Source: Polytrichum commune
Taxonomy: Eukaryota; Streptophyta; Polytrichopsida; Polytrichales; Polytrichaceae
Assembly: GCA_950295325.1 (NCBI GenBank)
Contig: OX485803.1
Location: forward strand, 56,993,554-57,057,553
DNA length: 64,000 nucleotides
Reading direction: 5' to 3'
Of this stretch, positions 7,035 through 38,347 are shown piece by piece. How positions within the stretch are numbered: the first letter of the stretch is position 1; each line of letters begins with the position of its first letter. The position numbers and the translations under genes were made by a program. The notes beneath the pieces are model-generated. The model worked only from the letters and a program-made list of their open reading frames with translations. It was not told the DNA's origin and made no database searches.

Positions 7035-10000
7035 TCAAAACATTTGTTTGCGACACTCTGCAGCTCCACAGTAACATGGCATTTTCTTGATAGTTCCGTC
7101 CGCTTGCACCACACTGTTCACGGCAAAGCCATAATCGTAGCTCAATTCCTGTAAAAGAAACCTCCAATGATCAAAAGTTGTATCAAGTTATCATAAACCC
7201 ATGACCTCCATCAATGACCTCACCAATTCACCTAGTATATAACTTTGATGTGGCCTACCTCATGCCACAAATCTACCCAAGCACATAATTATCATGCCCC
7301 AAAGAGCTAATCTTAGTAATACGATGTCAGGCAATTTCACGACTAGATTATTAGAACAGAGGTGACTAAAAAACTTCATGTCCCTTGTCACATTTTGTCT
7401 ATAATGACGAAGTGTATGACGTTGCTTGACAACTATATTAGATTGTCTAAAAGGGCAAGGAGAATATAGAGAAATGCAATAGATCTGGTCAAAATGGTTA
7501 ATTGGTCACAATAGGTCTTCAGAAATGAACAAGGTCAACAACGAATGGAGGAAACCATGCAGTCTTTTGTAAAAACAAATCTAAAGTATGTGAGGTGACT
7601 TAATATGAACGATAATAACTTTTTTCCAATCACATGATGTGTCTCAGTATGCTTTGACCACATTATGACATAGAATTGTGCAAAAAACTTCACAACATAA
7701 AATCAACAGCAATCATTAAGAAGCCACATCTTGGTTGAGATTGAAAACTAGCCGATATAAAACATGAAAGAGCTGACCCATATGCAATAGAAATGAGATT
7801 TTGCAAGCAAATGTACCTCCAGAGGATGTATATGATCCGCAGCAAACATAGCAATCCGAGGCAGAGAAAAATCATCATGGCTGCTGAGCACACACTGGAT
7901 GAACACGTTGGGATCACAACTATGATTGAGAAACCTTGAAACATTTCCAAAGTCTTGAGCATCGATAACATACTTTGGAAACTCTCGCCTCAGTTCCTCT
8001 CCATTGAACTTAGCGACAACATCACCTACTCGCTTCTGCACAAACAACAAGTTAAGGATGAGAGGAATCAAATGACCTTTTCCTTTTTGATCCCTTGAGT
8101 TATTGAACAACATTTAATAAACAAGTTGAATTGCATCGTAGATAGACCTGAAAGCTGTCAAGAAACAAAACAATCTTGAAGAATTTGTTTCACACCTCTA
8201 TCAAAATTTGTGAAATACACGTTCCACACATCCAAGTGGTAGCTAAACAACTAATTATATTGGTCCCACACTAGAACGCACTTCTCTAGGATTCAGCCAG
8301 AACAATGCACCTTGCGTCCTTCCAAGCCCTTCATAGTTTCCACCAAGTCGAGCTCAAGGATGTAGGTGTTGTCCACCAAATGCTCGATCCGGTGATCATT
8401 CCGTTTTAGTTTCCCAACATATTCACAAATGAATGCTCCGGCTGGAATGTAATCCCACGACCGACAACCCCACCCCTTTGAAGCTGTTTTGAAGACCTGC
8501 CATAATCTCAAGGTCTGTCTCAATCACTTGGGAACCAACAGTGGCACACTGGGCTCAAAATTTGAAGTACATCATATTATGAATCGGCTCTATTTGAACT
8601 CCTGAGATAAAAACATCAAGCCAATAACTTCAGTGGTTGGGATTCATCTTCAAGTGGTGCCACTTTCACTCCATCAAACTGCTCTACTGTTACATGTTAT
8701 AGTCCACCCGTCAGTGTGGGGTTTACTAGATCAACGAATCATCTGCAAAGTTGTGGGTATTGAGGGGTTAAGTGAGCCTAGTTAGAAGAGGAAGACTGGG
8801 TGAATTAAAAGTTGTCTTAATTATAGTTTTTGAAAAGAGTCCACCCAAGTAATGGGCAGAATTTAAAGGCCCTCAACCAAGATTCTAAGCGACACTTTAC
8901 TTTAGACCTTGAGGCATGTAACTATTTTCCTTGATAAATGAAGATTTGGTGGTATAACAATTGTTTCATCACACGGTGAATTGAAAATTTTCCTCTTTTT
9001 TCTTAACCAAATGAAACAAGTTTGCCATCCCCCAAAAAACATGTACAAAGCCACTAGAGACCCGACGTGGCATCCCATGGTGCACTCAATTGTCACACAT
9101 ATGTTTGTGACAACTTACAAGGATAATCTTGGTAGATGTGAGGACTTGAAATAGGGTAAGATGCCAAAGTGACACAGTGCATGATTCGTATAAAATAGAT
9201 TTGTGTCAAACCTCAAGGTTGTATTGTAGGCCTTGTTGAGATGCACGATTGATACATTGAGGGCCGCATGCACATTGCGGACCACACTCGTACACAACAT
9301 CCACGGGTTGCACCAGCCTGCAGATCAATTGAACCTTAGGAAAATTGAAGTTACAAAATACGAGATATGAATGGAGCAACAAGTGACCAAATCTCCAAAG
9401 CCCAAATTAGGGGTTGCATCTCATGAGAACATCACACAGAAAGTCACCATAAACTTCTACATGCTTAAATATCATGTAAGAACAATAAAATGTCAAAATA
9501 ACATCATAAATTCACAATCAACGTCATGATAATTGCATAATTGGTTTTTTTCAATGTTTCTCTAGTATTATATGCCACAATATATTGCTACAAAAGATTA
9601 ATGTGTACATTATTATAAGATAAATCAATTATCCAAGATGATGTGCAAAAGTGGTAGAATTTTCCACAGCTAGTCCTACAAATAAATACACTTACCTCAC
9701 ACCCCGATTGGATACATAAGGAAACTTTGATCCATTCTTCTTGGCACAAGCACACGTTTGATGATCTGTGCACGAGCCCACACAGCTGCATCCCTTTGCT
9801 CGATAAGGAATCGGGACATCCTTTGACACAATGGTTCGGCTGATGTATGTGAACTCTGTTGTCAACCGGTGGATCGCACATCAGGCTTTGAAGGAACAAT
9901 TACTAAGACAGAAATAAGTCCAATGTCTGTCAACACTCCCATGAGTTGAGGGTCTCTTCACTCAATGCACTAGTTTGTCAATTGGAAGGTGGAAACTTTG

Positions 10001-19830: not shown

Positions 19831-20262
19831 AATTTGCAAGTGTAGGGGATTCTTATCTAACACTATATTCGTTAATTGGAGACTTTTGAAAGTCTCAAAA
19901 TAAAATATGCCCATAGTTTGGGATGCCAATATTGTGGGCATACGGAATATTGGAAACATCAAGAACATGACGATTTAAAAATTCGTACGTAAAGGATATT
20001 CTTATTACTAAAAATAGAGAATTTCAATTAAAATGAAAAGTGAGCTCCATGTGGAAAATAACAATCCACTCCAAAAAAAAACAAATGGTTTATGTCATTA
20101 TAGAGTTTGGGGTGCGCATCCCATAAGTAAGGCTCTTATGAATTTGGATGGCACATCCCAAACGTATACCACAATGGAGTGTGACAAGTCCACTAAGTCT
20201 ATTAAAAACCAAATCTACTAATCGCCCATGTTTTTCGCCATTAACTCCCACCTATGTTATGT

Positions 20263-23200
20263 TTACACATCTCCATCTTCCGCTTCATATCCATTCTCGA
20301 CGTCATTTTCTGCCGCTGCAATACGTGCCAAGTTGTCTTTGGCAAAATCTATATGTTTTTGGGGGATGGTCATTGTTTCTGTTTTGGACCCTTTGCGCGG
20401 CTTCCAAGCACAAAGTATAGTATCCGTGTTTATCCAAACCGGTGTGTACGCTGAGTCCACTGTCCACTTAAAATTCTTTTTGGTGTCCCAACCTAAATAA
20501 GTGCGTAACACGTTCTGGTCTTTAGTACTTGGACAACAATATTCCACCTCAATCTGACGAAAGTTGGGGCTAGTTCAAACAAAATTGGGTGAAGACAATG
20601 CTTTCACCAACCAAATTGGCTTGGGATGTTCCTCATCCCCTGCTCGTACAAGGACCAAATAACCTTCATGGCAATCAACACCTACATGAAACGACGGTGC
20701 CGGTCGATTGCGGGCAGGGCCAACGTAATGCTCGTCCATTGCGAACTCTTCACGAACGTCTCCATTGCTAAAAACCATGGTGTCGGACTCGACAAACGGC
20801 AAACGACTTTGTGGCCAAAATCCTTGTGTTAAAGTTGTACGGATGTCACCACCAAGTGTCATTAGGGCGGAACGAATGCGATCCCAATACGCAATCAAAG
20901 GTTCATGAGTATCTCTAACACATCTAGTAATGTCCTCCTCACACAACTCTTTCCAATATTCAATGAATCCGGATATGCCTTTGATGATTTCCGGCCCATT
21001 CCTCATGGGGTCGGGTTTGCAAGGCTTTGGATCCCCATCCGGGAGCAAACATTTGCCATCATTGTCTTGACGCCATACAAGTATACCATCATCCGGGCCC
21101 CAATTAGGAGATGTGCACAAAAGCTTGAATTGCATGGCTAGCAGACCATCATCCCTTATATAGAATCGGAATTGTTGTGCTTTGGTATGCCCCACCAAAC
21201 GGTCCCCTCCCTTCAACATGTATGACTTGATGAAGGCCTTGAAATCTGGTACTTCCTCAATCATGTGCGGAATTACTGGCATATGGTCCAAATCCATATA
21301 CGATTTCATAAAAAGAGATATGGTTGGAAAATCTTCTTCATGCAACTTCATGCTCCACCGTCCGAATGATGCATCAATGTCGTCGTGTGTATGTCCCACC
21401 ATAAAAAATGACACAAACACCTCCTTGAAGATTCCTTTCGCCACGAGCAATGACCAAAAACAAAATACATATCGACATTTGTTGTCTTTCGCGCAATTAT
21501 CAAGTTGAACGTGAAGAGTTGGAGGCAATGGTTTTGCACAAATAGGTTCTCCCGGTGGTTCTGGCAATGACGACATACAAACCTCCTTCCCCGCAAGCAC
21601 TGCTTCGTAAAGGGGTGTCGTTCCACAACCATCAAAAAGTGCACGTGATGAATGTAACGGCAGCTTCTCCAGATCGCGCAAGAGTTTGCAAATGAACCCA
21701 CTGTGTGGTTAGCATCGCCAGGGTAAAAATCCAACCCATAATGGGCATACTTTACGTCTCCATGGCCGTGGGCAATCATCCCTGCGGAAAAAAACAAACG
21801 ATGCTTGAACAACAACAATAACAACGACAACTCCAAACGGAGGTATGAAATTGGACATTTGACAAACATACCCAGTAAAATTTGAGAGAATTTGAATACA
21901 TATTTGTGATTCAATACAAACCTGTGACAGATACGGGCAACTTGAAGAGACCATCCGTGGCCTTTATTTTGCGTGCATAACAAGGGCATGCGGTCTTGGC
22001 GTGGTCCATTTTATCATGGATGATTGTTAGAACCTCTGTAGGCCTCATTATGGATAGAGCATGGTTCTTGTAGTAATCTTGACGGTGAGCCTCTTGGTTG
22101 TTGACATGTTCAATATATTTTGCTTGGTGTCTAGTGTAGGATTCGGTGCCTATAGGGTGGGCGTTTCGAAGACCTTTGTATTTTTCACACGTCGTACACC
22201 TAGCGAACTTGTACCCAGGTCTCTTCAAAATGTATTCGGCAAACTGTTGGTTTTTAATCACACTCAACTTGGACAAAGAAATGGGCCCACATCCCGCTAT
22301 ACGACCCACTTCATTGATGTCCGTTAATATGTTCTTCCATTTTGTACCCGTGGGCAACACCATTTGTACAACTTTCTCCCCTGACGACAATGTCCTCGTC
22401 TTGTGGGGCATTGCATCGGCCAATGGGACTATGATGGTGGAGAGTGTCGCGGAGGCTTGGAGTGTAGCCTCCCTAGATTTCTTTGTGCCCGAATTGCCAT
22501 GAAATCGAGAGCGGCGACCCAACGATGAATACTTTTGAAACCTATAAAAGTCAGACTTTGACACGGCGTGGATAGTATACCACGCAGTACAACACACTTC
22601 CACATTTTCAAGTGTGACCACCTTATGCCCATGGGTGTCAATGTGGACATTTCTGTGGACCTCGAGTTTCTTTGCCGATCTCATACGGAAATCCGCAAGC
22701 CACATCTCTTGACGTAGGGACTTAATTTTCTCCCGCGGGAAAAATTGGCAACATTTCCTCTCGCAACAGTCCTTGGCGGACACAAGACGGATAGATTCGT
22801 CTCCCAATATGCGATCCCGTCGACGTTATTTATCTCCACGAGGCACACGGTTAAAATCATATCTGTGTAGGCCTTTGCGAGGACGTATTTTGGCCAACAA
22901 AGCTAATTGCGTTTGCTTATGGCGGCGCTCATGGTCCAACAAGCTTACTCCGTCATGGAGAACCCGACAAAGAGGCCATCGACGTAAAGAAAATCTCCAT
23001 GTCACCGAGACGTCAAGCGGAAGCAAAGAATTCAAGATGCACACACCCACATCATCGGGACCAAGGGGGTTGGCATCCACACAATCACGGGGATCGGAGT
23101 TTCTACATATGCCATCTGCCACCGGGATACCAACATCGTTGAAAAGAACAACATCAAGGCCCACCCATTGCTCCCTACCGAAACCGGCACATAACGGAAT

Positions 23201-23398
23201 GTCATCATTGTCATCCCCGGAACGTATAGATTATTCGTGCGCTTCAAATGATTCGTGGGAGGATGCATCCACAAACCCACCCATGGCATTTGCCATGCCA
23301 TGACTACCCGCCGATGCCGAAGATAGTTCACAGTCACCATCGGAAGAGGAAGCTTTTGTGGACAACTCCAATGAACTATATCCAACGTGCATCGCCAT
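20263..23398 (-). pseudogene. DUF7869-type transposon-associated gene, inactivated
   Basis: One minus-strand frame runs from an ATG at 23398 (MAMHVGYSS) to the exon end at 21922, interrupted by stops near 23231 and 22826. A GT..AG intron (21921-21782) joins it in frame to a second exon reading GMIAHGHGDVKYAHYGLD. A one-base frameshift near 21690 then leads into the 368-codon C-terminal part. A third stop at about 20575 precedes the last 90 codons. Recognisable features are the cysteine cluster CCERKCCQFFPREKI and the signature VGHTHDDIDASFGRW, which I associate with DUF7869 proteins scattered through transposon-like genes of many eukaryotes. The biochemical role of the family is not known to me. 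The breaks argue that this copy is dead. LTR copy 2 sits just upstream of its start. Confidence 0.65.
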
Positions 23399-23449
23399 CC
23401 AACCTAAACAAACCACCAATAAATGACCAACACAACAACAACCGCAATG

Positions 23450-25367
23450 CATACTGTGAGCCCAAAATGGTGCCCACATGTGGTGATTAACTCTTTGAAA
23501 CCAATTTTAGTTTGACTTTGATGTGTTATGATTATTCACAAAACATAAAAAGAGTGAAGTATGGTGTGGATTTAAGTTTAGGCATTAGAATGTGTTGTGT
23601 AGTTATTTCAAGGTTTGATTTCAATAAGAGGATGCCTTGATGACGTGAGTAAAGGGTAAGGTGAGGCAAGGTGAGCTCCGCGGGTTAAATGCCCACTTTT
23701 GGATCCACCTTGGTAGTTTAGGAAGAAGGAAGCTTGGTGGAAGGGGATTAATCCCTACTTTGAAGGTGAAGGTTAAGGGATTGTGATTGGAGGTGCTAAT
23801 CCTCCCACCCTATCCTCACCTCTCTCTCCCTCTCTCCCTCTCTCCCTCTTTGCTACTTAAGGTGTTCTTTCTCTCATTTGCAACTCTCTCCATCAAGCGC
23901 TCTCAAGGGAGCAAGCTCTTAAAGAGCTTGAGCCACGTGTGTGTGACATTAGTTTTAGTGAAGTTAGTTAGTTAAGCTCTCTCTCTCAAGGCCTCCCAAG
24001 TGAGGGAGCTCTAGAGCTTAAGTTTACATGTAGTGATTAGGTGGTAGTAGCAAAATTAGTGTGTTAGATTAGTTCATGACTTAGGAGCAAGGAAAAGAAG
24101 AACAAAAAAAAAAAAAAAAAAAAAAAACCTTTGATTAGTGAATTAGAGGGGTTGCATTAAGGGTAGCTAGCCAAATAGAATTAGCATATAGTCAATAGGA
24201 CCCTTGCTGGCCTTAGGATGTGGAGCCAAGACTGTAACCTTTGCTAGTTCAGGCTGTGGAGCCGAGACTGTAACCTTTGCTGGTTCAGGCTGTGGAGCCG
24301 AGACTGTAACCTTTGCTGGTTTCAGCTGGAGCAGCCGAGACTGCTGACCTTTCTGGTTCAGGCTGTGGAGCCGAAACTGTAACCTTTGTTGGTTTCAGCT
24401 GTGGAGCCGAGACCGTGACCTTTGTTGGTTTCAGCTGGAGCAGCCGCGACTGCTGACCTTCTGGTTCAGGCTGTGGGGCCAAGACTGTAACCTTTGCTGG
24501 TTTCAGCTGGAGCAGCCGCGACTGCTGACCTTCTGGTTCAGGCTGTGGGGCCGAGACTATAACCTTTGCTGGTTTCAGCTGGAGCAGCCGAGACTGCTAA
24601 CCTTCTGGTTCAGGCTGTGGGGCCGAGACTGTAACCTTTGCTGGTTTCAGCTGGAGCGGCCGAGACTGCTGACCTTTCTGGTTCAGGCTGTGGAGCCGAG
24701 ACCGTAACCTTTGCTGGTATAAGCTGGGCAGCCGAGACTGTGACCTTGCTGGTATTAAGAGTACTAAGTTGTGGAATCCGAGGCTATCAAGGGGCCGCCG
24801 GTAACTAGGTGGGAGTTGTACCCATGGCTAATTAGACAGTTGGTAGAATTAGTGAGCTAAGGCTAAAATTGTGTGGAGGGTGCCACTAAACTACCCAATA
24901 GGGTGTTAGACCAATCGTAAACTAGAATAGTTATTAGGCAAGTGTTAGGCTCAATAGGATAGGCAAGGAGTGTGGAAGTCTCATATGATTAAATGTAACA
25001 TTGACTATAGAATAAAGTGTTTTTCAACACTTGCACCTATCGTTCAAAATAACTTACTTGCATTATTAATGGAGAATGTGAAGGACTCTTGCAATGGCAA
25101 GATAGATGGGGTGAAGATCAAAAGAGTAAGGGGAATGTCCGTAAGGGCATGCGCGGCTAAAGCCGCGGGTTGGACTCTTGAGAAAGCCAACTCTAGCACA
25201 AGCCTAGAGGCCAACATTAATAAAGCACAATGAGTGATACAATACGTGTTCATTCGAACATGAAAAATTCCTTGCATATGGTTCAATGTTGTAATAGATA
25301 ATGTGATTCTCAAAGTCATCACCCGGACTAGGACGCTTAAGGGTGGTGGATTTGGCCTCACACATAC
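23450..25367 (+). mobile_element. Solo LTR of the same retrotransposon family (copy 2) with 5-bp target duplication
   Basis: The LTR spans 23455-25362, starts TGTGAGCCC and ends GGCCTCACA. The direct repeat CATAC lies at 23450-23454 and 25363-25367. The first 600 bases and the last 220 bases are clearly homologous to copy 1. This copy has an extra A homopolymer of about 24 bases (24104-24127) and a differently diverged tandem array. It inserted just upstream of the DUF7869-type gene. No internal retrotransposon genes are seen. Confidence 0.85.
24236..24760. repeat. About 37-bp minisatellite inside LTR copy 2
   Basis: About 14 tandem units alternate between two forms. One reads GGTTCAGGCTGTGGAGCCGA then GACTGTAACCTTTGCT. 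The other reads GGTTTCAGCTGGAGCAGCCG then CGACTGCTGACCTTCT. The alternation gives a higher-order period of about 73-74 bases. The position within the LTR corresponds to the 35-36-bp array of copy 1. Confidence 0.8.
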
Positions 25368-25453
25368 AAAAGTGGATACGAGATATGCCTACATATATGG
25401 CTGAAAAATCACAACCAACACTCGACACACCGTTGAGGGACCTCACATATGAA

Positions 25454-26759
25454 GACGAACGTGCGTTCGACAACAGCCCCATGACATACAAATCCTACAC
25501 GGGACTCAAACGTCCCTGCACAATGGAACCCCATTCCGATATATATTACCCATGAAGGGCTTTGGGTGGAGTCGCAAATAAAACATTGGAAGGGTTTTCC
25601 ACCACCAAGGGATAACACAAGCACATATATTCACGAACGCGAGGACGAAAACATCAACCCAATATACAATAAATTCTAAATGGAACATACTATAAGAGCA
25701 CCAAAAATATACTTGCCACTTTATTCACATGCAGTAAGCATCATATTTGAGGGGCGTGTATTTGATGGGCGAGTGTTTACGAACGATCGTTCGTTAGCTA
25801 CAGCCGAAATTGAGGGCTTATGTACACGAACGATCGTTCGTAAGTTCCAGCCGAAACATAGGGGCGGATGCATACAACCGATCATATGTATGTTACAGCC
25901 GTGACAGTGTTAGGCAAAAATGATTGGACACGTCCGAATAGAGATATCTATAGCCACGTTATAGGGATACATGAAATCCAATATCCAGTGGAAAATGACA
26001 ATCGACATCTATCACTAAAATCATGATTGAACAGATACGAACGAGCGTTCGTATCTATCATTAACACGGTGTAGTCCTCTACACATGCTTGCGTCAACAG
26101 GTCTGTTGGTGGATGCGTGGACGGTGGACAGGTGGTATTTACGAACGTGCGTTCGTAAAATTGGAAAACATAATTCTCCGTGGACATAAATGGTAGTGCG
26201 AAATACGAACGAGCGTTCGTATCTATCCTAAACATGGTGTAGTCCTCCACACATGTTTGCGTTAACAGGTCTGTTGGTGGATGCGTGGACGGTGGACAGG
26301 TGGTATTTACGAACATGTGTTCGTAAAATTGGAAAACATATTTCTCCATGGACATAAATGGTAGTGCGAAATACGAACGAGCGTTCGTATTTAACTTCCA
26401 TATTGTTAACGTGGCCAATGCACGGAAGTGTATAAATTAAGGAATGTTTATGGATTCTTGAAAAATAATCCCAGGTGATATTTACGAACGCACGTTCGTA
26501 AATATCCCATCATCAGATGTTCCGTTGGAGAAAACGGTTACACGGGAACTCATGCGCGTCTGGGTCTTGAAGGCATATATACGAACGTACGTTCGTATAT
26601 AATCGATACAATTTTCGTGCCTAGTTCTGTCTATAAGTAACTCAATGTCGAGTACGGTTGTGATCAACTTACGAACGCACGTTCGTAAACAATTCACATC
26701 ATCTCTATGTACCTCTTGTGCATGTGCTACCAACTCACGTTTACGAACGTGCGTTCGTA
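25454..26759. repeat. Upstream cluster of the TACGAACG..CGTTCGTA palindrome (12 sites)
   Basis: Sites (18-mers): 25454 (weak), 25778, 25825, 26036, 26140, 26204, 26308, 26372, 26483, 26580, 26670 and 26742. Eight match TACGAACGNNCGTTCGTA exactly, with centres AG, TG, CA or TA. The site at 26308 has two compensating changes (TACGAACATGTGTTCGTA), which keep the palindrome intact. The surrounding sequence is unrelated from site to site except within the local duplication. No gene is identifiable in this stretch. Confidence 0.9.
26035..26370. repeat. 168-bp tandem duplication carrying two palindromes per unit
   Basis: Units 26035-26202 and 26203-26370 are near identical. Both contain ATACGAACGAGCGTTCGTAT, then GGTCTGTTGGTGGATGCGTG, then a second palindrome. 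The second unit's second palindrome carries the paired C/G-to-T/A changes at 26308. A third palindrome at 26372 begins a further partial unit. Confidence 0.8.
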
Positions 26760-28300
26760 AACGTCCGGTATTTGCGGCGGTATATACGGGTATGTGCAGT
26801 CTGTAGTGGACCTGGGAGGTGTAGGGTTGGCGCACAAGAAAATGGTTTGAGCGCGTTCCAGTCAGGTCTGTGGAGCGCACACTTGGATGTGCCGCAGAAA
26901 AGAGCTCTTCTGTGGGGGGAAGAGCTTTAAGTACCTTTCCCCCGATGGTTCAAAATCCCTTGGATGCTATTTAAAAAGCGGATTCCTACCGCCTACTTTG
27001 ACCTAACAATATGTCATTCCATCCATGCACAATATATAAATAGCATTATGTATGGAACATGTGTTGCGTGCACGCAACATATTGTAAATCTATAAATCCG
27101 TCGCACACCTTAGTTGTTACCAAGGTAGCACGAAAATATGTCTATATGTCTATATGTCTATATGTTTATATTTATATGTATATATATATGTATAATTTAT
27201 ATTTTACTATTTTATATATAGGTTATTGTATTATATATATATGGGTTGATGGGTTAATATTGAGTATTAAATTATTTGCGACTAAGGTGTGAAGTCCAAG
27301 TGAATTGATGAAGGTCTAAGTGATATATATATATTCACACACACAATGAGGTAAGAGTGGCTAAGAACATATTGTAGAATCCCCTAAAATTGTAGGTATC
27401 ATATGATTCACATAAAAAAAAATGCTTGTAATATGGTCACCAAGTGCATGAATACCAATAAAAAGTCGCTTAATCCATAGTGGCTTGTGCTAGGTAGATT
27501 GAGGACATTTGGAACTGGAGGCTCACCAAACATCGCCCCATATTAATATGACTCATTGTTGCAATTCATCATTGGTGAAAATTAAAGTTTAATGCACTAG
27601 TATTCGATCGTTAGTTCAAGTTGACACCTAATTAAATGACTTGACGTCCTATTGGAAATTCACTTTAGGTCCACCATGGTGTGAAAATGGATAACTAATT
27701 TGGAATGGTGCATACAATAGTATGCACTTACAATTATATATTTGTATTATTTGCAACAAGAAGTATGTGCATGACCATAGCTTAAACTGTTGATTTAAGT
27801 TGAAGTCTTAAACCATTCATGTTATAATAAGACTAAGTGTGTATTTTGTGATCAAATTGCACTCAAAACTATTAAGGTGAAAGGGCTAGCATTTCAAAAT
27901 TCACTCTTCACTCCCTAAACCAATGTTTTATATCAAAATGACAATTATTGGCATGAGTCTAGATTATTATAGTTGCTATGACCCAAATAAGGCAAGTTCC
28001 AATCGAACCAACATTGGTAGACCATTTTGACATGATGCGCATAGACCACAACATGGCCATATATAAGAAAGGTTGGTAAGACAAAAAGATGTAGGGTTTA
28101 GGGTTTGGGGTTAGGGTATAGAGTTTGTGAAAGTTGTCTATGTGGTTTGCGGGCTTAGGGTTTAGATCGTTACTTCAATGCATTATATACACAAACAATA
28201 TCGACTCCTAAATAATCCATATCGCACTAACTTAATTTATGGGAAGCTCATACTATCAATTATTGATACTACTAGCAAAACATACGACCACATGGCTAAA
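26760..28300. other. AT-rich intergenic DNA with TA-rich microsatellite
   Basis: A simple-sequence tract of CTATATGT and TATATG units lies at about 27139-27245. A short run of plant telomere-like sequence (GGGTTTAGGGTTTGGGGTTA) is near 28094-28117. There is no supported gene and no copy of the 18-bp palindrome in this 1.5 kb. Confidence 0.5.
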
Positions 28301-28307
28301 ATACACT

Positions 28308-28645
28308 ACACTAAATATGATATTTAGTGTTTGATTGTATAATATAGTGTTGTTACACTATCATGGTCAACACTAAATTTCAATTCTTTGATAATTACTG
28401 TTGGACATATTAAATGGACCACCACATTTCCTACTACCATGTCCTTTATGCTTTTATCATTGTTAATTGTTTTTTTCATATTAATTTCCTTACACAAAAT
28501 TTGTGCATGCGACATCCACATATTACCATTATAGTTGAAATTAAGTGTTTGAGTTCACAATGAATAGTAGTTACTTTCATAGGGTTACTGATATTTAGTG
28601 TACTATGCGTTTGTATTTAGAGTATCTAACACTAAATATCATATT
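28308..28645. mobile_element. Candidate small inverted-repeat element bounded by the TAAATAT palindrome family
   Basis: The palindrome ACACTAAATAT-G-ATATTTAGTGT at 28308-28330 and a partial copy ACACTAAATATCATATT at 28629-28645 bracket about 300 bases of AT-rich non-coding DNA. The arrangement fits a small non-autonomous transposon. No target-site duplication could be recognised. Confidence 0.3.
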
Positions 28646-29049
28646 AAGGGTGGTTCAAGCTAACACCTCATTAAATTAATGACATCATATTGAAAATTGA
28701 ATTTTCATCCACCTCTTGTGGAGAATCAGATAGCCCCTCTCCACAATTCAAATTGAGTCATTTATATATGTAATATGTATTTGAGGAACCATTGAAGAAC
28801 TTTAAAGATGCCTCGTTCATGAAAACGACATTTGCATCTTGGGGGTGGATTCTTCATCGAAAACCTACTAAATGACATGAATTGTTAAATACAAATTATC
28901 TGAACATACTTTTCTAAAATATGTTTACAAGGAATCCATATGTCGAGGTACTAAGGGGATACGGAAAGTTAAATTTATGTCCCTAAACTAAGCTCCTCCT
29001 ATCTCCTATTTCATTTTTCCTGAACCCTCATCCCTCCATGTCCCCATGG

Positions 29050-29272
29050 TATCCCCTCATCCCCATCCCCTCCCCCTCCCCCTCCCCCTCTCCCATCCCA
29101 TCCTCATCCCATCCTCATCCCATCCCCCTCCCCTCCCCATCCCCTCCCCATCCCCTCCCCCCCATCCCCCCCATCCCCCCCATCCCATCCCATCCCATCC
29201 CATCCCCTCCCCATTCCCTCCATCCCCATCCCCATCCCCATCCCCCTCCCCCATCCCAGCCCTAGCCAGTGG
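29050..29272. repeat. CCCATCCC/CCCCTCCC simple-sequence tract
   Basis: More than 200 bases are almost pure C/T/A with the units CCCATC and CCCCTC. The complementary strand is G-rich with many GGGG runs, which could form G-quadruplexes. It lies just upstream of the presumed transcription start of the 30-37 kb gene. The long open frames across it are an artefact of base composition. Confidence 0.8.
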
Positions 29273-29274
29273 CC

Positions 29275-29943
29275 ACTAGCCACGTGGCTGCCGCTTGGAA
29301 ACCCTAGCGGCGCCGACTACCTCCCCGCGCCCCTCTCTCTCCTCCTCATTTGTCATTTGGAGTAGAGGAGGAGAGGAGCTCTTAGGTGCGGCGAAGCCCT
29401 TGCCAATTTTAGAGCCTCATTGTGAATGTTGTTTTGTTGTGTTGTCAGAACCTTGAGAATAGGAAAGCTAGAGAGTAGGAAAGGTCGAGAGGTTGAGAGT
29501 TATAGAAAGCTTGAGAGGTTGAGAGTTATAGAAAGCTTGAGAGGTTTAGAGTTTTAGAAAGCTTGAGAGGTTTAGAGTTTTAGAAAGCTTGAGAGCTTGA
29601 GTTTTAGAAAGATTGACAAGTGGAGAGTTTTAGAAAGGTTGAGAGCTTGAGAGTTTCAGAAAGGTTGAGAGCTTAAGAGTTTTGGAAAGCTTGAGAGCTT
29701 GAGAGTAGGAAAACTTGAGAGCTTGAGAGTTTCAGAAAGCTTGAGATTTCTGAAGGTTGTGAGTTGTGTACATCAGGGTTTGTGTAGGATTTGCATATAA
29801 GTTGTGAAGGCTTGAGAGTGTGACAAAGTGAAATTGCAATTGAAAGCGAATTCAGCGCTTTTGAAAGACAATTTGGTGTGCATTTGTGAGGATTTCTGGA
29901 TTTCTCAGTAGGAGGCAGGAGGTTTTCTGTGCAACAATTCAAT
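29275..29943 (+). promoter_or_regulatory. Presumed promoter-proximal region and 5' UTR exon of the 30-37 kb gene
   Basis: A GC-rich start region (CACGTGGCTGCCG; AAACCCTAG telo-box near 29300; CTCTCTCTCCTCCTC) is typical of plant transcription starts. It is followed by about 600 bases without long open frames that end at a good donor, CAAT|GTGAGTAC (GT at 29944). The acceptor CTCTGCAG at 30839-30846 lies directly before ATG 30847, so splicing would place CAATTCAAT before the start codon. Within it, 29455-29745 is a degenerate tandem repeat of AGAAAGCTTGAGAG. The gene structure is inferred and there is no transcript evidence. Confidence 0.45.
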
Positions 29944-30846
29944 GTGAGTACAGGTTTCCTTTACAAATCAGTCCTTCACAATCTGAAATTGTTGTTTGAT
30001 GAATTCCTTGTGATTTGTTTTCTGCATTATGAGGTATGGCATGTTTTGTATGAAATAACACTTTCCTCTTCATTCTGAATTATCAATCACTGACTCGCAA
30101 TTTTGTTCTGATTCCATTTTTCACTTGTGTTTCATCAATCTGATCACGAGTTGCAGGTTCATGAACAATGCAAGATCGCAACATTCATACCAACATATAT
30201 ACGTATCCGTATATGTATATGTACGGATATATATATGTATATAAATAAATATACCATTTCCTAATCCCAGATGACCAACACAAACATGCCTTACCCCACA
30301 AACATATACGAACGTGCGTTCGTAAATACGCACCTCACCCTCCATTTTTACGAACGCACGTTCGTATATTCATCTATACCCTGTACATCAGACAAATCCT
30401 CAAATCAAATTACACATACAAAAATACGAACGAACGTTCGTAATCACAAACTATAACAATATACCAAACCCTTCATTGTAATTGTCTGCTTTCCCTAATA
30501 GCATAATTTACGAACGCACGTTCGTAAATAAGAACTAAAGTATTAATTCACCTATTTCGAAGAAGCTCATGGAAATTAGAACAATCCTCGTGGAAATTAG
30601 ATAACCCTGGACAACGCGTAGACTTGTTTAGAAACAATACGAACGCACGTTCGTAAACTTTAGCCAAATACACCTTAGCAACCACATTCTTTACGAATGA
30701 TCGTTCGTAAATGAAATCAGCGAAGACATAATTAAAACTCCTCCGGGTACCCATAGCCAGCGTTCATTGATTAGTATATATGATTTGCTTGTCAATTACG
30801 AACGCTCGTTCGTAAACACAATACTAAATGTTTATGTGCTCTGCAG
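29944..30846 (+). other. Presumed 5' UTR intron holding seven palindromes
   Basis: It is bounded by GTGAGT at 29944 and TGCAG ending at 30846. Palindrome sites: 30307, 30349, 30425, 30509, 30638, 30692 and 30797. Six are exact, and 30692 has a single mismatch. They occupy only the last 540 bases of the intron. Confidence 0.55.
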
Positions 30847-33800
30847 ATGGCTAGACCGAGCAGGAGCGCCATTGAGATGTTCGCAGTGCAGATAGATCAG
30901 CTTCCAGAGTCAGTGTCCGACCCCAACGGAAACGATAATTATGTCCCGAAGGAGGACTTCATTGGGGAATGGACGGCACTGCCAGAGAAGACATCAGACG
31001 GTCTTTTCTGTCTTCGCTTCACCTACGAGCTGGAAACGACGCCGGACCAACCAGAGCAATGGGTGCAGATGAAGACTTGGGAAGTAGAATCAATTGAGGC
31101 ACAAGGAGATTATGTGATTTTAGACATGAAAAATAAGAAGGATCACATTAACCTCCTGTTAGAGTACAGGAGACATAGTTTCTCCTACACATACGCAGAA
31201 AATAACGTAGTGGCTGATGCCAAACACTTCCTCAAGGGCATGTTCACGAAGTACGCCCTGAGCTCGTACTGGACAACAAGGAAGTTGGCCGCGCTTTCCT
31301 TGAATATCTCCAAGTACAATAGCGCGGTCGCCGAAGCCAACAAGAAAAAGAAGAGCATACGAAAACCATCCGCATCCGGGGCAGGAGGATCGAGAAGTGC
31401 ACCCAGGCCGGTGCCTTCTGCGAGTAGGGTGACGGAGGGTCCCAGCCGATATTCCACGCCATCGAAGAGGTCCCGGGACGAAATGGAGAGGTCTGGGGTA
31501 ACAGAGGGCGCTGAGGTGAGCTCTCCTCCCCTGATGCCAACCCCTTTAAAGAAGGGTGAGAATCCAGATGCAGTGAAGGCAACAAAGATCCTACGAGATT
31601 TCAATAATTACTCAAAGGATTGCTGGCCCATGGGGCGCCACTTCACGTTCAACGTGGACTGCTTCAAGTGCGAAAAGTCCCCCAACAAGTGGGTGGTAAG
31701 GTCTCGCGAGAGCGGTGGGGTGAAGTGGCAGATCAACAACCTCATGAACAACGTCAAGTGGGATAGGCAGACCGTCTGCGTCATGCCCAAGGGGTTGACA
31801 TCCCGACCGACAGAGATGGATTGGCCGCGAATCCAGAATGGAGAATTCTGGATTATAGATGGTCAGCATAGCTTGAAGGCGTCGCAACAGATCCTCAAGG
31901 ACGACAACTTCCAGCACGAGCTGAAGGCTAACCTGCGGTACTGGAAGGCGTTCTTGGTCTGGTTAGACGATTGGGACAAGCTGCGCAAGACTTCAACCTT
32001 CCTGAACTCGGGGAACAAAATCAAGGCGTTTGAGGCTTCGTGGGCGGCTAACATAGTGGCTGCGAGAGACGTCTGGGTGGCACACGGATGCCCACCAAAG
32101 GAGAGGGAGAACGCCAAGGACCAGTCTCCTCAATGGAAGGTGAGTTTACGAACGAACGTTCGTAAAGTGTTGGACTCACGAAAACATCAATTACTGACTC
32201 AATTTACGAACGTGCGTTCGTATTATGTGCAACACTGACATCTTGTTTTGTGCAGGCATTTTGCGACGTGATGGTAGACAAGTTCTCTTCCATCGATATG
32301 AAGTCCACCACCACAAAGTCTGTGCTTGAGCTGAAGGGTGAGCTCAGACTCATCTGCTGCAACAGGGACACTTGGGACTTGTGGACCCAGTTTTTTGATG
32401 CACACAGCTCGGGCGATTTGGTCAACCCCAACACGGAGGAGAAGTACAGCACGGAAAAAACCGGTGAAGCGCCCCCACTACTGAGGGAGTTCTTTAGACA
32501 CCTCCAGGGATTGACGGAGTCAGAGCTGAAGAGGTGTGCGATTCATGTTCTTGGGAATACCGTGGGAAGAACCCTTCCCTATCCCAAGATCTTTTTGAAG
32601 AGGCCAAAGCACAAGCCCGGCACGTACTCTATCAAGGAGTGGTGTGACCACGGGAAGCTGAAGACTGCAGCCATGAGAGAGTTGAGCGTACTCGTACCAT
32701 AGTACAAAATCTTTGAAGTCGACGGCGACATCAACTGGCCGCAATGGCAATTGTTAAAGGTCGACTACAACATCAACAGAGCCTCCATGCGCAGTCTGGT
32801 CAAGGAGCACGCCTCGGTTTTGAAGTTGAAGGGGAACAAAAGAACTAAGAAAACCGACATGGATCCCCATGAGGTAATGCTATACTTAAAATTTTTGGAG
32901 AAGAAGAGGAACGCCACATTCGAAGGAATGGCAAGGTTTTGCGTGATCACCTCCGGCGTGGAGAGGGTCACATTTTCCAAGTGGGACAGCACCATCAGCA
33001 GGGCCGAGGTGAGGGAGGATCGACGGGGTTGCCCTTTTGCCCTCATCGATTTCAGGGGGATCCTGGGTGCGTCAAGGCAGGGGGGGAAGGACATTCCCTT
33101 CTACAACCCTTTCATGGCCAAGTTCATGGAGTTCAAATCGCCGGCCATGAGGGAGCCACACGTTTGGCTGTGGATAGTCGAACAAGAGAAGCTGTCGGTG
33201 GTCACAGAGTTGTACGAGCAGAAGATCAAATTCGAGTACAACATCTTCCACAGCACGTACGTGCCAGCGAAGACGGAGGGGATCGTGGCCATCAACGAGG
33301 CCAGGGGCAACAAGCAGGTGGGAGCGGTCAGCCTGATTTTCTTGACGTACAATGAGCTAAGGGATGGGCGACCGCCTATCAAGGCAAACAACACGTTCAA
33401 GAAAATCTACAGCATCCCGCATCCCCCTCCCAAGGATCTGCTGCAAGAGACCCTCTACACCGTCTTCCCCGCCATGGAACTCAGGATGGAGTTCTACGTC
33501 TCTGTATTGCAGAGTCTGGTTATAAGTGGAGAGACGGTATACAACGTATGTGGAGGCTCCAAATTCATGTATGCGGCCATGGTAAGTTGTCCAGACTCCA
33601 TTTACGAACGCTCGTTCGTAAAGTTAACCAACTTCTCAATGTATTGTTTCACAGTCGCTGCACGTGACGCATTCATGTTTACGAACGCTCGTTCGTAAAC
33701 ATAACCCCTTCGTAATGTAATGCTTGAAACTCGTTGCACGCTACGCTTTGATGTTTACGAACGTGCGTTCGTATTTTCTGACCTTATTGCTCTCTTCTCA

Positions 33801-36599
33801 CAGATGATGGGTCTCGTAGTCAACACATTCGTTGACGCTATCGACGAAGAAGACTTCAAGATCCACCGTGCGAAGGCGTCGACGATGGACCTCAAGGACA
33901 TCTGTGTCCCCAGGATGGACTTCAGTATGCCCGCCGACGAGGGCATACCATTCCACGATTCTGAGGACGACGAGCCCACCCCCTCCGCCAACGTGGACGT
34001 CATTCTGCAGTCCTTCGACGTACCCCCACTTCGGATCTTGCCGCCAACGACGGATCTTCCCGATCCTCAAGGGACGCCGGGTGGTTATACCGGGTCGTCC
34101 GCGGGGACAACCCTGGACGTCCTCCCCGCGAGAACATCTCTTGCAGAGCCTTTTGGAACGCCAGGCGGATGCTCGACGTCACAGTCTCCAAGGCCCGCCG
34201 TGGTTCCGAAGATGGAAACCCTGGACATCCTCGACCAACACTCGCGGCCATCTTTGGACCTCTTCCGCAACACGAGGAGGAGGATGAAGAAGACTCCATA
34301 TGTGGAGTTGCCGCCGGGAGCAATCATCGAGGTCTCGGACGAAGACGAGGGGGACATGGACATCATGGCCGAGCTTGGCGTGGACTACGACAAGAACAAG
34401 CGGGTGAAGGAGGAGGCACTCACCGTCGCTGAGCTCAACGCCAAGCTAGAGGCGAAGATGAAGGAGGAGATGGCTACAGCACAGGAGGAGAGCGCCAAGC
34501 ATCTGGCCAGGCTGCAAGAGCAGCTGAGGGATTCAGCGGCCAAAACCGACGCCATCTTCGAGATGCTCAGAAACATGCAGAGCCTCTCTGCGCCGGTCCA
34601 GCAACCTTACCCCTTCCCCCCTGGAGGATACCCCTCACAGCCCCCACCTCCAGTCATGTACCAAGGAGGGCCTTCCCACCAAACAGCGCCACACCCAACG
34701 CCGGCGGGAAGTCCATTGCCCCGGGAAGTGACGGCGGCCGCCTCAACCTCCCACGATGCAATCACGGCGGCGCTAAGGGAGGACGAAGATTTACGAACGC
34801 GCGTTCGTGAATCTTCAGGTCCGGCAGTCCTCACCCCTCCCCCTTCAAGGGTAGGACTGCCCACAGACATCGACACGGCCTCTTTCACCGTCGTCCCAAG
34901 GGTTCTAGATAGGCGGGGCGATGACACTGCGCAACACACTGACATGGTCATTGTGGAGGAAACGCAGGGGAGCCCCAATGACTCGGCAGGTCCGCGTGGG
35001 ATGGTCGTGGAGAGCCCTGACCAGGAACGACATCCGTCCGCGCACATGGAGGATGTCCGCATGGAGAGACTCGACCTGGGCGGGGACGACAACGTGGAGC
35101 TCATCCAACAGACCCAGTCGTCTCAGGAGGAGCGTCCAGCGGAGGTCATGGAAGCAGAGGCTGCTTCCCCAATGGAGTTTGTGAACGCGCGTTCGTTAAT
35201 CAAAGAGGTAACTCATCTCTGAGAATGCCAAATGTTTTACGAACGCGCGTTCGTAACATCACTAACCCCCCGCGTTGTGTTCTTGGCGCTTCAACTCCAT
35301 CGACATCACGTTGCCCGCGCGAGCATTTTTCTACGTGATCGCTTGGGCCGATCAATTTTGTAGGACACTGCATTTTTTCCTTAGGAAATTGTGATAGATT
35401 ATCACGCGAGACAAATGTACATATTCACCGAATTAATATATGAGCAGACGATCTCTGCTTGCATCCCCTAAACTTATTGCATATTCTCGCGTCTTGTGTT
35501 GTCTGTGCTCTTGCGCGTCCTTGCATTCTTTGCATGCACACCTCACTCACGAACGCTTGTTCGTAAAACTGTGCGACCCCGTCTTGACCTCCTTCGCGAA
35601 CGAGCGTTCGTATATGTATGCATCCGCGCTCACGAACGAGCGTTCGTAAATGATGCGCACCGCCCCGCAGCCTTCATTCACGAACGGTCGTTCGCAATTG
35701 TGCCCTTCTGAACATTTTCCTTGCACCCTCCTCACTTCCTCCTCTTTTCCCATAATGCATCGTCTTTATTTTCAACGCAACAATTTCTTTATTGGATCAT
35801 AGAATTAAACTAGTCGCGTTGTTCATCACAGGACCCCCCGGAGATAGGTCGCAACCCCTCGACCAGTGGACCTCGAACCCGGAACAAACCGTTCCTCGTT
35901 TTTTACCTCAACGGGGTGTTGTGTCACACCCAACACATCCCAAGGGTCCCCACGTGTCCCTTCCGTCACCCCGACGAAAGGGACTACGACGGCGAGCTCG
36001 ACACCCTCATTAACCGCAAGGCTGTCCGCGCCCGTCCCGGCCTGCGGGACTTCCTTCGCGAGGTGGTCGAGTTCGCCCACGTCGTTGTGTGGAGCTCCAT
36101 GGTCATGGAGAACACGGAGCCCATCGTCCACTTCTTGTTCCGTGATCTCCCGAGCCCTTGCCTCGTCCTCGGCCAAGAGGAATGCGACGAGCTGCTCGAC
36201 GAGAAAGGCCGACCGGTGCCCAAGTTTGGCGGTCGAGGCGGAGGACAACAGTTCCTCAAGGTCCTCCGTTCAATACTATGGCAAGGCGTCCCCCGTCTGC
36301 ATGGGACGCCCCACGGGTGGTGGCCGACTCCTGAGAACACCCTCCTCATCGATGACAGCCCCACCAAGAGCGTCTTGAACCCCCCGGGCAACGTCATCTT
36401 CCCGGACACTTGGACCGGCGATAGGCAAGACACATTTTTGGTCGATAGGCTAGCCCCCTACCTTAGAAGGCTCGTGCTCCACGCCGGTAGCATCCCATTT
36501 TTTGTTAGGTCCAACCCCTTCGGCAATGCGGCACTAAGCCCCCGCGATAATGTATTCAAGAGCATCATGAGGCTCGCCAAACTCAATAAATTGATTTGA
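30847..36599 (+). CDS. Composite DGQH / methyltransferase-like / HAD-like protein, four exons, one in-frame stop
   Basis: Exons are 30847-32139, 32256-33581, 33804-35207 and 35832-36599. Introns are all phase 0 with GTGAGT, GTAAGT and GTAACT donors. They encode about 1,596 residues, with TAG at 32700 (residue ~580) as the only break. Domains: residues 334-345 read FWIIDGQHSLKA, resembling the IDGQHR core of ParB/DndB-type proteins. At 856-880, SGETVYNVCGGSKFMYAAM then MMGLVVN resembles the SAM-binding motif of beta-class amino-methyltransferases with the final helix. A coiled coil is at ~1072-1130, followed by a Pro-rich stretch. FCP1/NIF-type HAD is at ~1362-1590, with FLVFYLNGVL, VVVWSS and LLIDDSP, the first catalytic Asp being Tyr and the second Asn. 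GC-rich coding sequence contrasts with the AT-rich surroundings. I do not recognise the family by name. Host gene versus mobile-element gene is unresolved. The domain calls are inference. Confidence 0.6.
32140..32255 (+). other. Intron 1 (116 bp) with two palindromes
   Basis: Donor AAG|GTGAGT and acceptor TTGTGCAG|GCATTT. Exact palindromes lie at 32147-32164, seven bases after the donor GT, and 32205-32222. Because each copy is self-complementary, the two can pair either internally or with each other. The paralogous intron at the same position in the 38-41 kb copy lacks them. Confidence 0.75.
33582..33803 (+). other. Intron 2 (222 bp) with three palindromes
   Basis: Donor ATG|GTAAGTTG and acceptor TTCTCACAG|ATGATG. 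Exact palindromes at 33603-33620, 33680-33697 and 33756-33773 are spaced 77 and 76 bases apart. The three segments share related flanks (TGAAACTCGTTGCACGCTAC beside CAGTCGCTGCACGTGACGC), so the intron grew by local duplication of a palindrome-bearing unit. Confidence 0.75.
34792..34809. repeat. Palindrome copy inside coding exon 3
   Basis: TACGAACGCGCGTTCGTG interrupts the exon 3 reading frame without a stop and without changing phase, encoding LRTRVR within EDEDLRTRVRESS. An 18-base insertion is six codons, so the frame is kept. Confidence 0.75.
35208..35831 (+). other. Intron 3 (624 bp) with five palindromes
   Basis: The donor is GAG|GTAACT and the acceptor CATCACAG|GACCCC. Sites: 35238 (exact), 35548, 35595, 35631 and 35679. 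The last four carry one to three changes at the outer TA, becoming CA or CG. A further degenerate site, 35180-35197, lies in the last codons of exon 3. Alternatively the true donor is GTGAAC at 35181, which would put that site in the intron. Confidence 0.6.
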
Positions 36600-36712
36600 A
36601 ATGCATCCATGTCTTTGCTTGTTATCATGTGGTTCACATATCTAATGCTTGCTCTGTTTTTGGATGTTTGTTTTTGTTTTTTTGTTGTTCTTGTTCTTGT
36701 TCTTGCCCATAG

Positions 36713-37698
36713 TCTGCCCCCATATGCGACGCCCCTGTAGTCGATGGCCCTTCCCGTCCCCTCTCGCCCCCGGCATCCCCTTCCCGCGACGTCACGGACT
36801 TCCAAATGCCATCCCTCTACCACTTCTCGGCGGTCGACGCGGCCTCGGCCGTGGATTACTCCCGCGACGTCGGCATCGACGACGGCGTTGTCAACAGCCC
36901 GCCCCCAGCACTTGTCCCCCGCGCGTACGCCCCGTCGCCCTCCCCCCTCTCCAAGGAGAAACGGACGCTCGTTCGTTTGGGGCACCTCTCGCCCTCTAAG
37001 GACGACGGCGTCGCTCGTCGCGGGCCGAGCCGGCGTCTCCGCATGGAAGGCCCCCGTTGCCACACCTCCCCCGCCGACTCCGTTCCTCCCCCCGCAACGT
37101 CCTCCGTGATCGTGGGCCCTCCACGCCTCGACTCCCCCCCGCCATCCAACAGTGCAATAGTTCCATCGGCTCCGGATGCTCCCGTCGACGCCCCCCTCGT
37201 TCCCACCGTTCCCCGCATGGACGTCCCCAAAGCCAAGGTGCCCTCCTCAACCCTAAACCCCTTTCCCGCTTTTGTTTTGCTTGTCTTCCGTGTGCGTGCC
37301 GTTCTCTTTACGAGCGCCCATCCCAAACCGCCCTCATTATTTTCCCCACTCCATTCCTATTCTTATCTTCCTATGACGTTGTTTCGCAGGTGGCTACCCG
37401 CTCGCTTGGTGCCCGGCCCTCCTCCACATCCTCCTTGGATAGGCACGCCCTCAAGGCCGCATCTTCCGAGTCCGATCGTTGTCTGGCCCTCCGGAGAAGC
37501 GCAAGACGTTCCCTTTCGCAAACGCCCTCGTATTCTACTTATAATACCACCTCGTACAATTCGGGAGCGCGTCCTGAAACATGCAAGAACGACACATATT
37601 CCTGTCCAGGCAACACACAAGGATACAGTCGTGGGCCTGAGATTTTTAGAGCCATGGAGGCCGCCAAAAAAAAAGGACTTAGCCGCAAAAAAAAATAG
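36713..37698 (+). CDS. Possible downstream exons: proline/serine-rich basic protein
   Basis: After an acceptor-like TTGCCCATAG, an open frame begins at 36713. An internal ATG at 36806 starts MPSLYHFSAVD. It continues to K at 37237 before GTGCCC, and resumes in phase after TTTCGCAG at 37390 (VATRSLGARPSS) to a stop at 37696-37698. The C terminus is lysine-rich (AMEAAKKKGLSRKKK). It may be the 3' continuation of the composite gene by alternative splicing, or a separate gene. The composite gene's own stop at 36597 lies between them. A degenerate palindrome sits at 36960-36977 within it. Low-complexity composition makes the coding call uncertain. Confidence 0.35.
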
Positions 37699-38347
37699 TG
37701 GGTCGGACTAGTGTGACTAGAAGCGTACTAGTGGGACGGACTCCCTAAATGCTTAGGTGTAGAACATATTTAAGTGCTTACTTTCTAGTATGCTATTCCA
37801 AGTTACTCAAGACATTGATGGTATTTCCATTATAATTGTATTTCAATCCCAATTAATTCATTCAACTTCCATTCATTCTTTGCATCTTCCCTTCCATTCA
37901 TAACGAGTTGTCATTTCATACGCAACTATTTTCATGTATGCCTCACATTTTTGTTCACTTCCATGCCTTTATGTATAATAATAGTAGCATACCATTATAC
38001 ATATGGGATTTTTAGTCGTCATTACTGGTCCAATTTTGAAATGTGCATCCTTATATAGTCTCATAATCAACAAAAAGTCTCCAATTACCGAATATAGTGT
38101 TATCTGATGAAAATATGATTATATCATAAGATCCATGCATAATAAATTTCCTTATTTTTCTTGTATTATTCATTGCTTGCGACAAAATGTATTGCTTAAT
38201 ATCAAAAGTTATTAAGGGCGAAAGAAGAAGGTCCAGGGGGGGACATTGTTGATGAATGTTATTGTTCAAAATAAAAATGATTTAAAAAATTAGATCTTAC
38301 AGGCACACGTCTATAAAATGTCCAATTACAAGTAGTTGAGAAACTCA

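Follow-up and report, generated by a model that had tools for sequence, protein, structure and literature searches.

The 64-kb stretch of the Polytrichum commune genome analyzed here (C1:56993554-57057553; hereafter, the window) contains a complete 18.2-kb DNA transposon at positions 19859-38101, and most of the copies of an 18-bp palindrome that it carries lie outside its predicted exons. Homology with other copies of the element starts at 19855-19859, and the right limit is 38101 in two copies. The terminal inverted repeats are 29 bp long (30-nt arms, 97% complementary, with one flanking base included), and 4-bp target-site duplications lie on both sides of two copies: ATCT in the window and CATA in a second element (L073/L087). 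The element encodes a DUF7869 protein on the minus strand, presumed to be the transposase, and a four-exon gene with three phase-0 introns on the plus strand. DUF7869 DNA is present at the same place in other copies of the element. The exon/intron structure is a prediction from splice-site-like borders; exon 2 has one in-frame stop in the window copy, and its range in another copy (L074) has three.

A scan of the whole window for the palindrome, TACGAACGNNCGTTCGTA, recovered 32 sites at ≤3 mismatches, 20 of them exact, all between 25454 and 36977. These numbers agree with the initial annotation of the sequence, which had reported the same sites and the same confinement, and chance would supply a mean of 0.06 sites and a maximum of 1 (100 dinucleotide shuffles of the window). 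The left end of the element up to 25454 (the first 5.6 kb) and the last 1.1 kb are palindrome-free. Thirty of the 32 sites are outside predicted exons, and the other two are within exon 3; exons plus the DUF7869 gene make up 7,042 of the element's 18,243 bp yet hold only these two (p = 3.6e-5). The two central bases are variable. The TT/AA extensions noted earlier are real: among 176 sites (≤2 mismatches, window plus stretches L073-L087, both orientations pooled), A directly follows the arm in 89% and occupies the second position in 85%. Complementarity continues beyond the arms, with 57 perfectly paired bases versus 35 when flanks were re-dealt among sites (p = 0.00025), although positions 3 to 12 alone showed no significant pairing by the same procedure (90 versus 82.6; p = 0.19).

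Two details of the initial annotation need revision. It had stated that the sites do not form a simple tandem array, but a 168-bp unit present in two copies (26035-26202 and 26203-26370, 94% alike) explains some adjacent palindromes; tandem units of both 168 bp and 76 bp contain sites. It had also taken a compensated change at site 26308 as a sign of selection for dyad symmetry or of a palindromic copying mechanism. That change, ACG TG CGT to ACA TG TGT, consists of two CpG transitions, one per arm, as expected from deamination, and so by itself is no evidence for pairing.

Table 1. Positions of the transposon's parts within the window
Feature	Position	Strand	Basis or remark
Left target-site duplication ATCT	19855..19858		repeated after right end at 38102-38105
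Left terminal inverted repeat, AACACTATATTCG...	19859..19887	+	inverted-repeat match; homology onset 19855-19859
DUF7869 gene, presumed transposase	20575..22825	-	PF25273 E 2e-35 on open reading frame 20578-21708
Palindrome cluster 1, 12 sites	25454..26759		palindrome scan
Palindrome-free spacer, CpG observed/expected 0.40	26800..30290		composition count
Palindrome cluster 2, 7 sites, directly upstream of first coding exon	30307..30814		palindrome scan
Exon 1; residues 265-394 predicted ParB/Noc-like domain, IDGQHS motif	30847..32139	+	splice borders, relatives, structure prediction
Intron 1; 2 palindromes (32147, 32205)	32140..32255	+	splice-site-like borders, palindrome scan
Exon 2; predicted altered N6/N4 DNA-methyltransferase fold; one in-frame stop	32256..33581	+	fold from clade-B relative P0043
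Intron 2; 3 palindromes (33603, 33680, 33756)	33582..33803	+	splice-site-like borders, palindrome scan
Exon 3, low-complexity; two exonic palindromes (34792, 35180)	33804..35207	+	splice-site-like borders, palindrome scan
Intron 3; 5 palindromes (35238, 35548, 35595, 35631, 35679)	35208..35831	+	splice-site-like borders, palindrome scan
Exon 4, NIF/FCP1-type phosphatase domain	35832..36599	+	PF03031 E 3.5e-14, above gathering score
Last, weak palindrome, 3 mismatches, 3' of exon 4, within open frame 36713-37711	36960..36977		palindrome scan
Right terminal inverted repeat, then target duplication ATCT	38073..38101	-	homology limit, inverted-repeat match

Palindrome words across the genome and among sister elements

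Genome-wide (407.8 Mb in 64 contigs, seven of them 42 to 78 Mb), there are 4,680 exact copies of TACGAACGNNCGTTCGTA and, as a control, no exact sites for the pattern read backwards. Among the first 100 palindromes listed of the 4,680, to which the statement of confinement applies, 97 lie in five homology-mapped elements of the window's family (33, 13, 23, 23, and 5; counted by eye). The remaining three (C1:2289034, C1:2367516, and C1:2485597) fall outside the mapped stretches; C1:2367516 and C1:2485597 are isolated and could be remnants or host sites. The genome-wide search proposed in the initial annotation finds the palindrome to occur across the genome and, in 97 of these 100 places, to be linked to the gene family; even dispersal with no such link was not seen among them. 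Searches with exon 1 and with a clade-B query gave lower bounds on copy number, the 97 best of 1,084 first-look candidates scored being 84 to 100% identical and the 97 best of 1,060 being 74 to 90% identical. L073/L087 (C1:639070-648560) is a shortened 9.5-kb element that retains both ends and 33 exact sites, in the densest arrays seen; homology mapping found no match in it to the DUF7869 protein or to exons 1 to 3 and only part of exon 4.

Relatives of the four-exon gene form protein clades, each of which goes with its own palindrome word. The words share the 8-2-8 form and a half-site fitting CGNNCNNA: word A (clade A) is TACGAACGNNCGTTCGTA, word B (clade B) is TACGGACGNNCGTCCGTA, and word C (clade C) is TTGGGTCGNNCGACCCAA. 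Metagenomes yielded 42 protein relatives of exon 1 (63 with a profile), and because these often read on into intron 1, their peptide tails spell the palindrome. Clade A members (66 to 95% identity to the window) end in YERxFV, TNxRS, or RTxVR, corresponding to word A, although RTxVR alone fits 16 half-sites; clade B members (42 to 46%) end in TDxRP or YGRASV, corresponding to word B (half-site CGTCCGTA); and the decoded clade C members (32 to 36%) end in WVDRP (half-site CGACCCAA). Rarer words (CGGCCGTA, CGCCCGAA, CGACCGAA, and CGGCCCAA) come from peptides of one to three proteins each, and the same words recur in intron 2 among relatives of exon 2. When only half-sites fitting CGNNCNNA were allowed, a decoder could read 30 of the 37 tails that were not empty, some of them ambiguously, compared with 142 of 7,400 shuffled tails, a contrast that is partly circular because the decoder was built after the first words were known; the tail-cutting pattern missed a few proteins (P0005, P0012, and P0032). 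Placed on a tree of 63 rows, the word labels require 13 changes (minimum, 7), whereas shuffled labels require a mean of 34.8 and none of 200 shuffles was as low; 10 unlabelled rows were counted as their own group in this comparison, and near-copies ease such clustering.

The words were checked in DNA at 20 of the 194 listed places, chosen for spread (5 from the exon-1 query and 15 from the clade-B query), and at further loci. All 10 clade A copies (the window, L074-L077, and L090-L094) have only word A in intron 1. Word B was found in 14 of 15 clade B copies (L095-L109), exact in 11 and decayed in 3; the truncated copy L107 has none. Two further clade B loci, L088 and L089, carry six and three exact copies of word B, respectively. 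In intron 1 of L098 and L105, word B has a CpG change (CGTCCATA), which in L098 is on both arms, like that at window site 26308. Word C was inferred, with a question mark, from protein read-throughs before any such DNA had been seen and was later found in DNA: L111 carries 21 exact copies (11 upstream, 4 in intron 1, 3 in intron 2, and 3 beyond the match to exon 3) and lacks the other six words, and L083 and L110, which are parts of one interrupted clade C element, carry 10 more. The phosphatase exon of L111 is 11.7 kb from the word-A element L073, which has 33 exact copies of word A and none of word C. Sites in L111 are spaced by 57 bp in intron 1 and by 36 bp in intron 2, and this spacing, together with the tandem units in the window, indicates that local copying spreads palindromes.

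The letters of the palindromes are conserved amid diverging flanks. Intron 1 was compared among the ten clade A copies, which are related; trimming had shortened four of them slightly at their ends. The arms of its two sites show 0 differences in 1,440 pairwise comparisons, versus 36 of 180 for the central bases and 1,290 of 3,311 (39%) for the remaining intron sequence. Exact sites had led to the window and L074-L077, so that the only copies without this bias are L090-L094, which were identified through their protein; both of their intron-1 sites are unchanged. Two intron-2 sites are common to four copies, with an altered arm base in one of them, and the third site of the window falls within sequence missing from the other three. 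Of 57 changes at other sites, 48 are transitions, and these are of all kinds.

The predicted protein and the role of the palindromes

The product of the four-exon gene is predicted to have three parts: a domain resembling ParB/Noc, an N6/N4 DNA-methyltransferase fold in altered form, and a phosphatase of the NIF/FCP1 type. The initial annotation had spoken of a DGQH/methyltransferase-like product, a description that the structure predictions bear out: a model with a ParB-CTPase fold covers the stretch with the IDGQH motif, and a second model has an N6/N4 DNA-methyltransferase fold. Weak family matches to exon products were to DGQHR (TIGR03187; E 0.09, NCBIfam) and DUF6551 (E 0.012, Pfam, with an alignment).

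We consider it likely that the palindromes are sites of a protein encoded by the element, and the ParB-like protein is probably the one that reads them. A dimer reading two CGNNCNNA half-sites, presumably including their CpGs, would most simply account for a dyad that is gapped and perfect and has fixed arms. The near absence of exonic sites, the fixed arms amid diverging flanks, and the clade-specific words lead us to favor, with reasonable but incomplete confidence, the reading of the palindromes as the transposon's own address tags, onto which its dimeric ParB-fold protein would load. Many occupied sites over upstream DNA and introns might then keep copies of the element free of methylation and capable of expression, with specificity for the lineage, as VANC proteins act on VANDAL transposons; that such anti-silencing is the main role of the protein seems to us slightly short of an even bet. 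Spreading of a nucleotide-gated clamp from the sites, as in ParB-parS, is conceivable, and the element may combine VANC-like release from silencing with ParB-like coverage. With sites masked, the CpG observed/expected ratio is 0.93 in cluster 1, compared with 0.39 and 0.43 in the host flanks and 0.40 in the spacer. In five elements, cluster 1 exceeded the spacer in four and tied in one, and cluster 2, with few CpGs, exceeded it in all five. This excess is consistent with local protection from methylation, and other causes of composition are possible.

Several observations weigh against this interpretation. The signal from CpG content is indirect and of modest size, and intron 1 with its sites masked has a ratio (0.36) no higher than that of the spacer. 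Through linkage, the words would covary with every protein that the element encodes, DUF7869 included. Both clade B loci with upstream DNA, L088 (1423-1440) and L089 (2856-2873), keep one exact word A with CG at its center about 60 bp before the start codon, so the words are not perfectly separate; these sites may be either ancestral or cross-recognized. The two fold models have mean pLDDT (predicted local distance difference test) scores of 69.8 and 63.2, Foldseek returned no match at E 0.001 (best, 1.9e-3), the structural aligner's best Z by chance is 7 to 8, and no ParB family was matched in Pfam, NCBIfam, or PDB sequences. DGQH seemingly replaces the GERR-like motif, a feature of ParB proteins, and no helix-turn-helix that would read DNA was identified; both models are of low confidence in the region following the ParB-like part. 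DPPY and FxGxG are motifs of N6/N4 DNA methyltransferases; in a 17-sequence alignment, neither canonical motif was found, and most sequences have DFRxIPG and NVFGG(S/T)K at the presumed corresponding places, which makes catalysis doubtful.

Because the DUF7869 and ParB-like genes travel together, the same facts also fit sites that serve transposition by the presumed DUF7869 transposase, as do motifs repeated near the ends of some cut-and-paste elements. Repeated internal sites for transposases are known in other superfamilies, and an element such as L073/L087, with both ends and its sites and neither gene, would also be explained by a transposase acting in trans. The window palindromes are not subterminal, however, and crowd the introns and upstream DNA of the other gene, and we regard this explanation as unlikely. 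Slightly less probable still is that the methyltransferase-like domain marks the palindromes with N4-methylcytosine or N6-methyladenine, labelling the element as privileged DNA. The predicted fold beside the ParB-like domain, the CpG richness of every word, and the existence of ParB-N6_N4-methyltransferase fusions in phages (PMC12704722) would suit it, whereas the altered motifs and the length of the sites, 18 bp being long for a modification enzyme, would not.

The initial annotation had offered three possibilities, of which sites for a homodimeric binding protein is the best supported and appears right in outline, with the binder itself a prediction. RNA hairpins in introns or leaders, controlling splicing or acting as small-RNA sources, would benefit from the perfect 8-bp arms, from the pairing beyond them, and from the many sites in introns or near the gene start. 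Were pairing the only constraint, compensated variants would be expected to accumulate, but the clade A intron-1 arms are fixed letter for letter, with no changes, compensated or not; symmetrical pairs elsewhere are few (window 26308 and L098), and the tip of such a hairpin would have a loop of only 2 bases, which is short. We think this explanation quite improbable. The remaining possibility, micro-mobile inserts (here widened to include gene-conversion tracts) propagated by copying, draws on the site-bearing tandem units and on the site spacing in L111, yet sites hold the same intron positions in diverged copies with unchanged arms, and nearly all of the first 100 listed places are within elements of the window's family; we give it very little credence. 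Beyond these possibilities, the locus proved to be a whole transposon, the 18-mer to occur genome-wide, and sister elements to carry different words.

Resemblance to known systems

VANDAL elements are Mutator-type transposons with a MURA-like transposase and target duplications of about 9 bp; here, the duplications are 4 bp in two copies, and a DUF7869 gene is present. In Arabidopsis, VANC proteins of VANDAL transposons release them sequence specifically from silencing, and both motif binding and hypomethylation have been shown (PMC5735166; PMC10398659). As described for VANDAL elements, a short family-specific motif occurs in many copies in introns, upstream, and in other noncoding DNA, motifs multiply via tandem repeats, and related elements differ in motif and protein (PMC5735166). 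The motif of VANC21 is 9 bases long and not palindromic, and DUF1985 is present in VANC proteins (PMC5735166), whereas the present motif is a gapped palindrome of 18 bp and the candidate protein is predicted to combine ParB-like, methyltransferase-like, and phosphatase-like parts. Pfam scans of the open reading frames holding all four exons (E ≤0.1) and of two alignments (E ≤1) found no DUF1985. Given this absence and the 4-bp duplication, we rejected membership in VANDAL/VANC; the system probably recognizes itself and would work in a similar way.

In having palindromic sites grouped near a gene whose product has, here by prediction, a ParB fold, the element recalls the bacterial ParB-parS (ParABS), Noc, and KorB systems, and different ParB family members use different sites. 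The present case differs in being an intron-bearing transposon of a eukaryote, in its DGQH motif and the lack of an identified helix-turn-helix, and in that no ParA was found among the ten open reading frames of the window scanned with Pfam. The resemblance is therefore one of predicted fold and site form and does not extend to sequence-level markers. A few loading sites of a ParB clamp can cover kilobases (PMC12704722). ParB-N6_N4-methyltransferase fusions of phages and prophages share both folds and the link to mobile elements; the candidate protein differs from them in its unseen canonical catalytic motif, extra phosphatase domain, repeated palindromes, and eukaryotic host (PMC12704722). 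The main text of that paper contains no word beginning with "transpos" or "plant," and a transposon with lineage-specific palindromes and its own predicted ParB-like protein was not found described in the literature searched.

We tentatively speculate, while thinking it rather unlikely in full, that this is a eukaryotic ParB-parS-like system in which a nucleotide-gated ParB-type clamp with a repurposed methyltransferase would load on its own palindromes, spread, and keep chromatin open, and in which a diversifying CGNNCNNA code (words A, B, and C seen in DNA and about four more from peptides) would separate sister elements in one genome. If true, plant transposons would have evolved sequence-specific self-recognition a second time, by unrelated means, and a eukaryotic nucleus would contain a ParB-fold protein that has palindromic sites of its own. 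Since several protein clades, each with a short word, coexist in one genome, the recognition code is directly testable by swapping proteins or words, and it could yield short, orthogonal, CpG-containing targets for epigenome tools.

The 18-mer was also detected in five contigs (L008, L019, L023, L030, and L037) of a Verrucomicrobiales metagenome-assembled genome (JAEUHD), embedded in longer, GC-rich sequence that resembles a hairpin (ctgNacTACGAACG..CGTTCGTAgtNcag in most contigs, with further near copies in three), and looks like an unrelated bacterial repeat. Elsewhere in the element, a repeat array with mostly 72-bp spacing (24171-24747) lies between the DUF7869 gene and cluster 1, and the spacer before the four-exon gene contains simple repeats of the CCCCAT and GAGAGCTT types at 29052-29262 and 29437-29732. 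Together with the introns, two further features of the window suggest a land plant: TTTAGGG-like runs and, at 7748-8113 on the minus strand, a host-gene exon with a SET domain (PF00856; E 3.2e-9).

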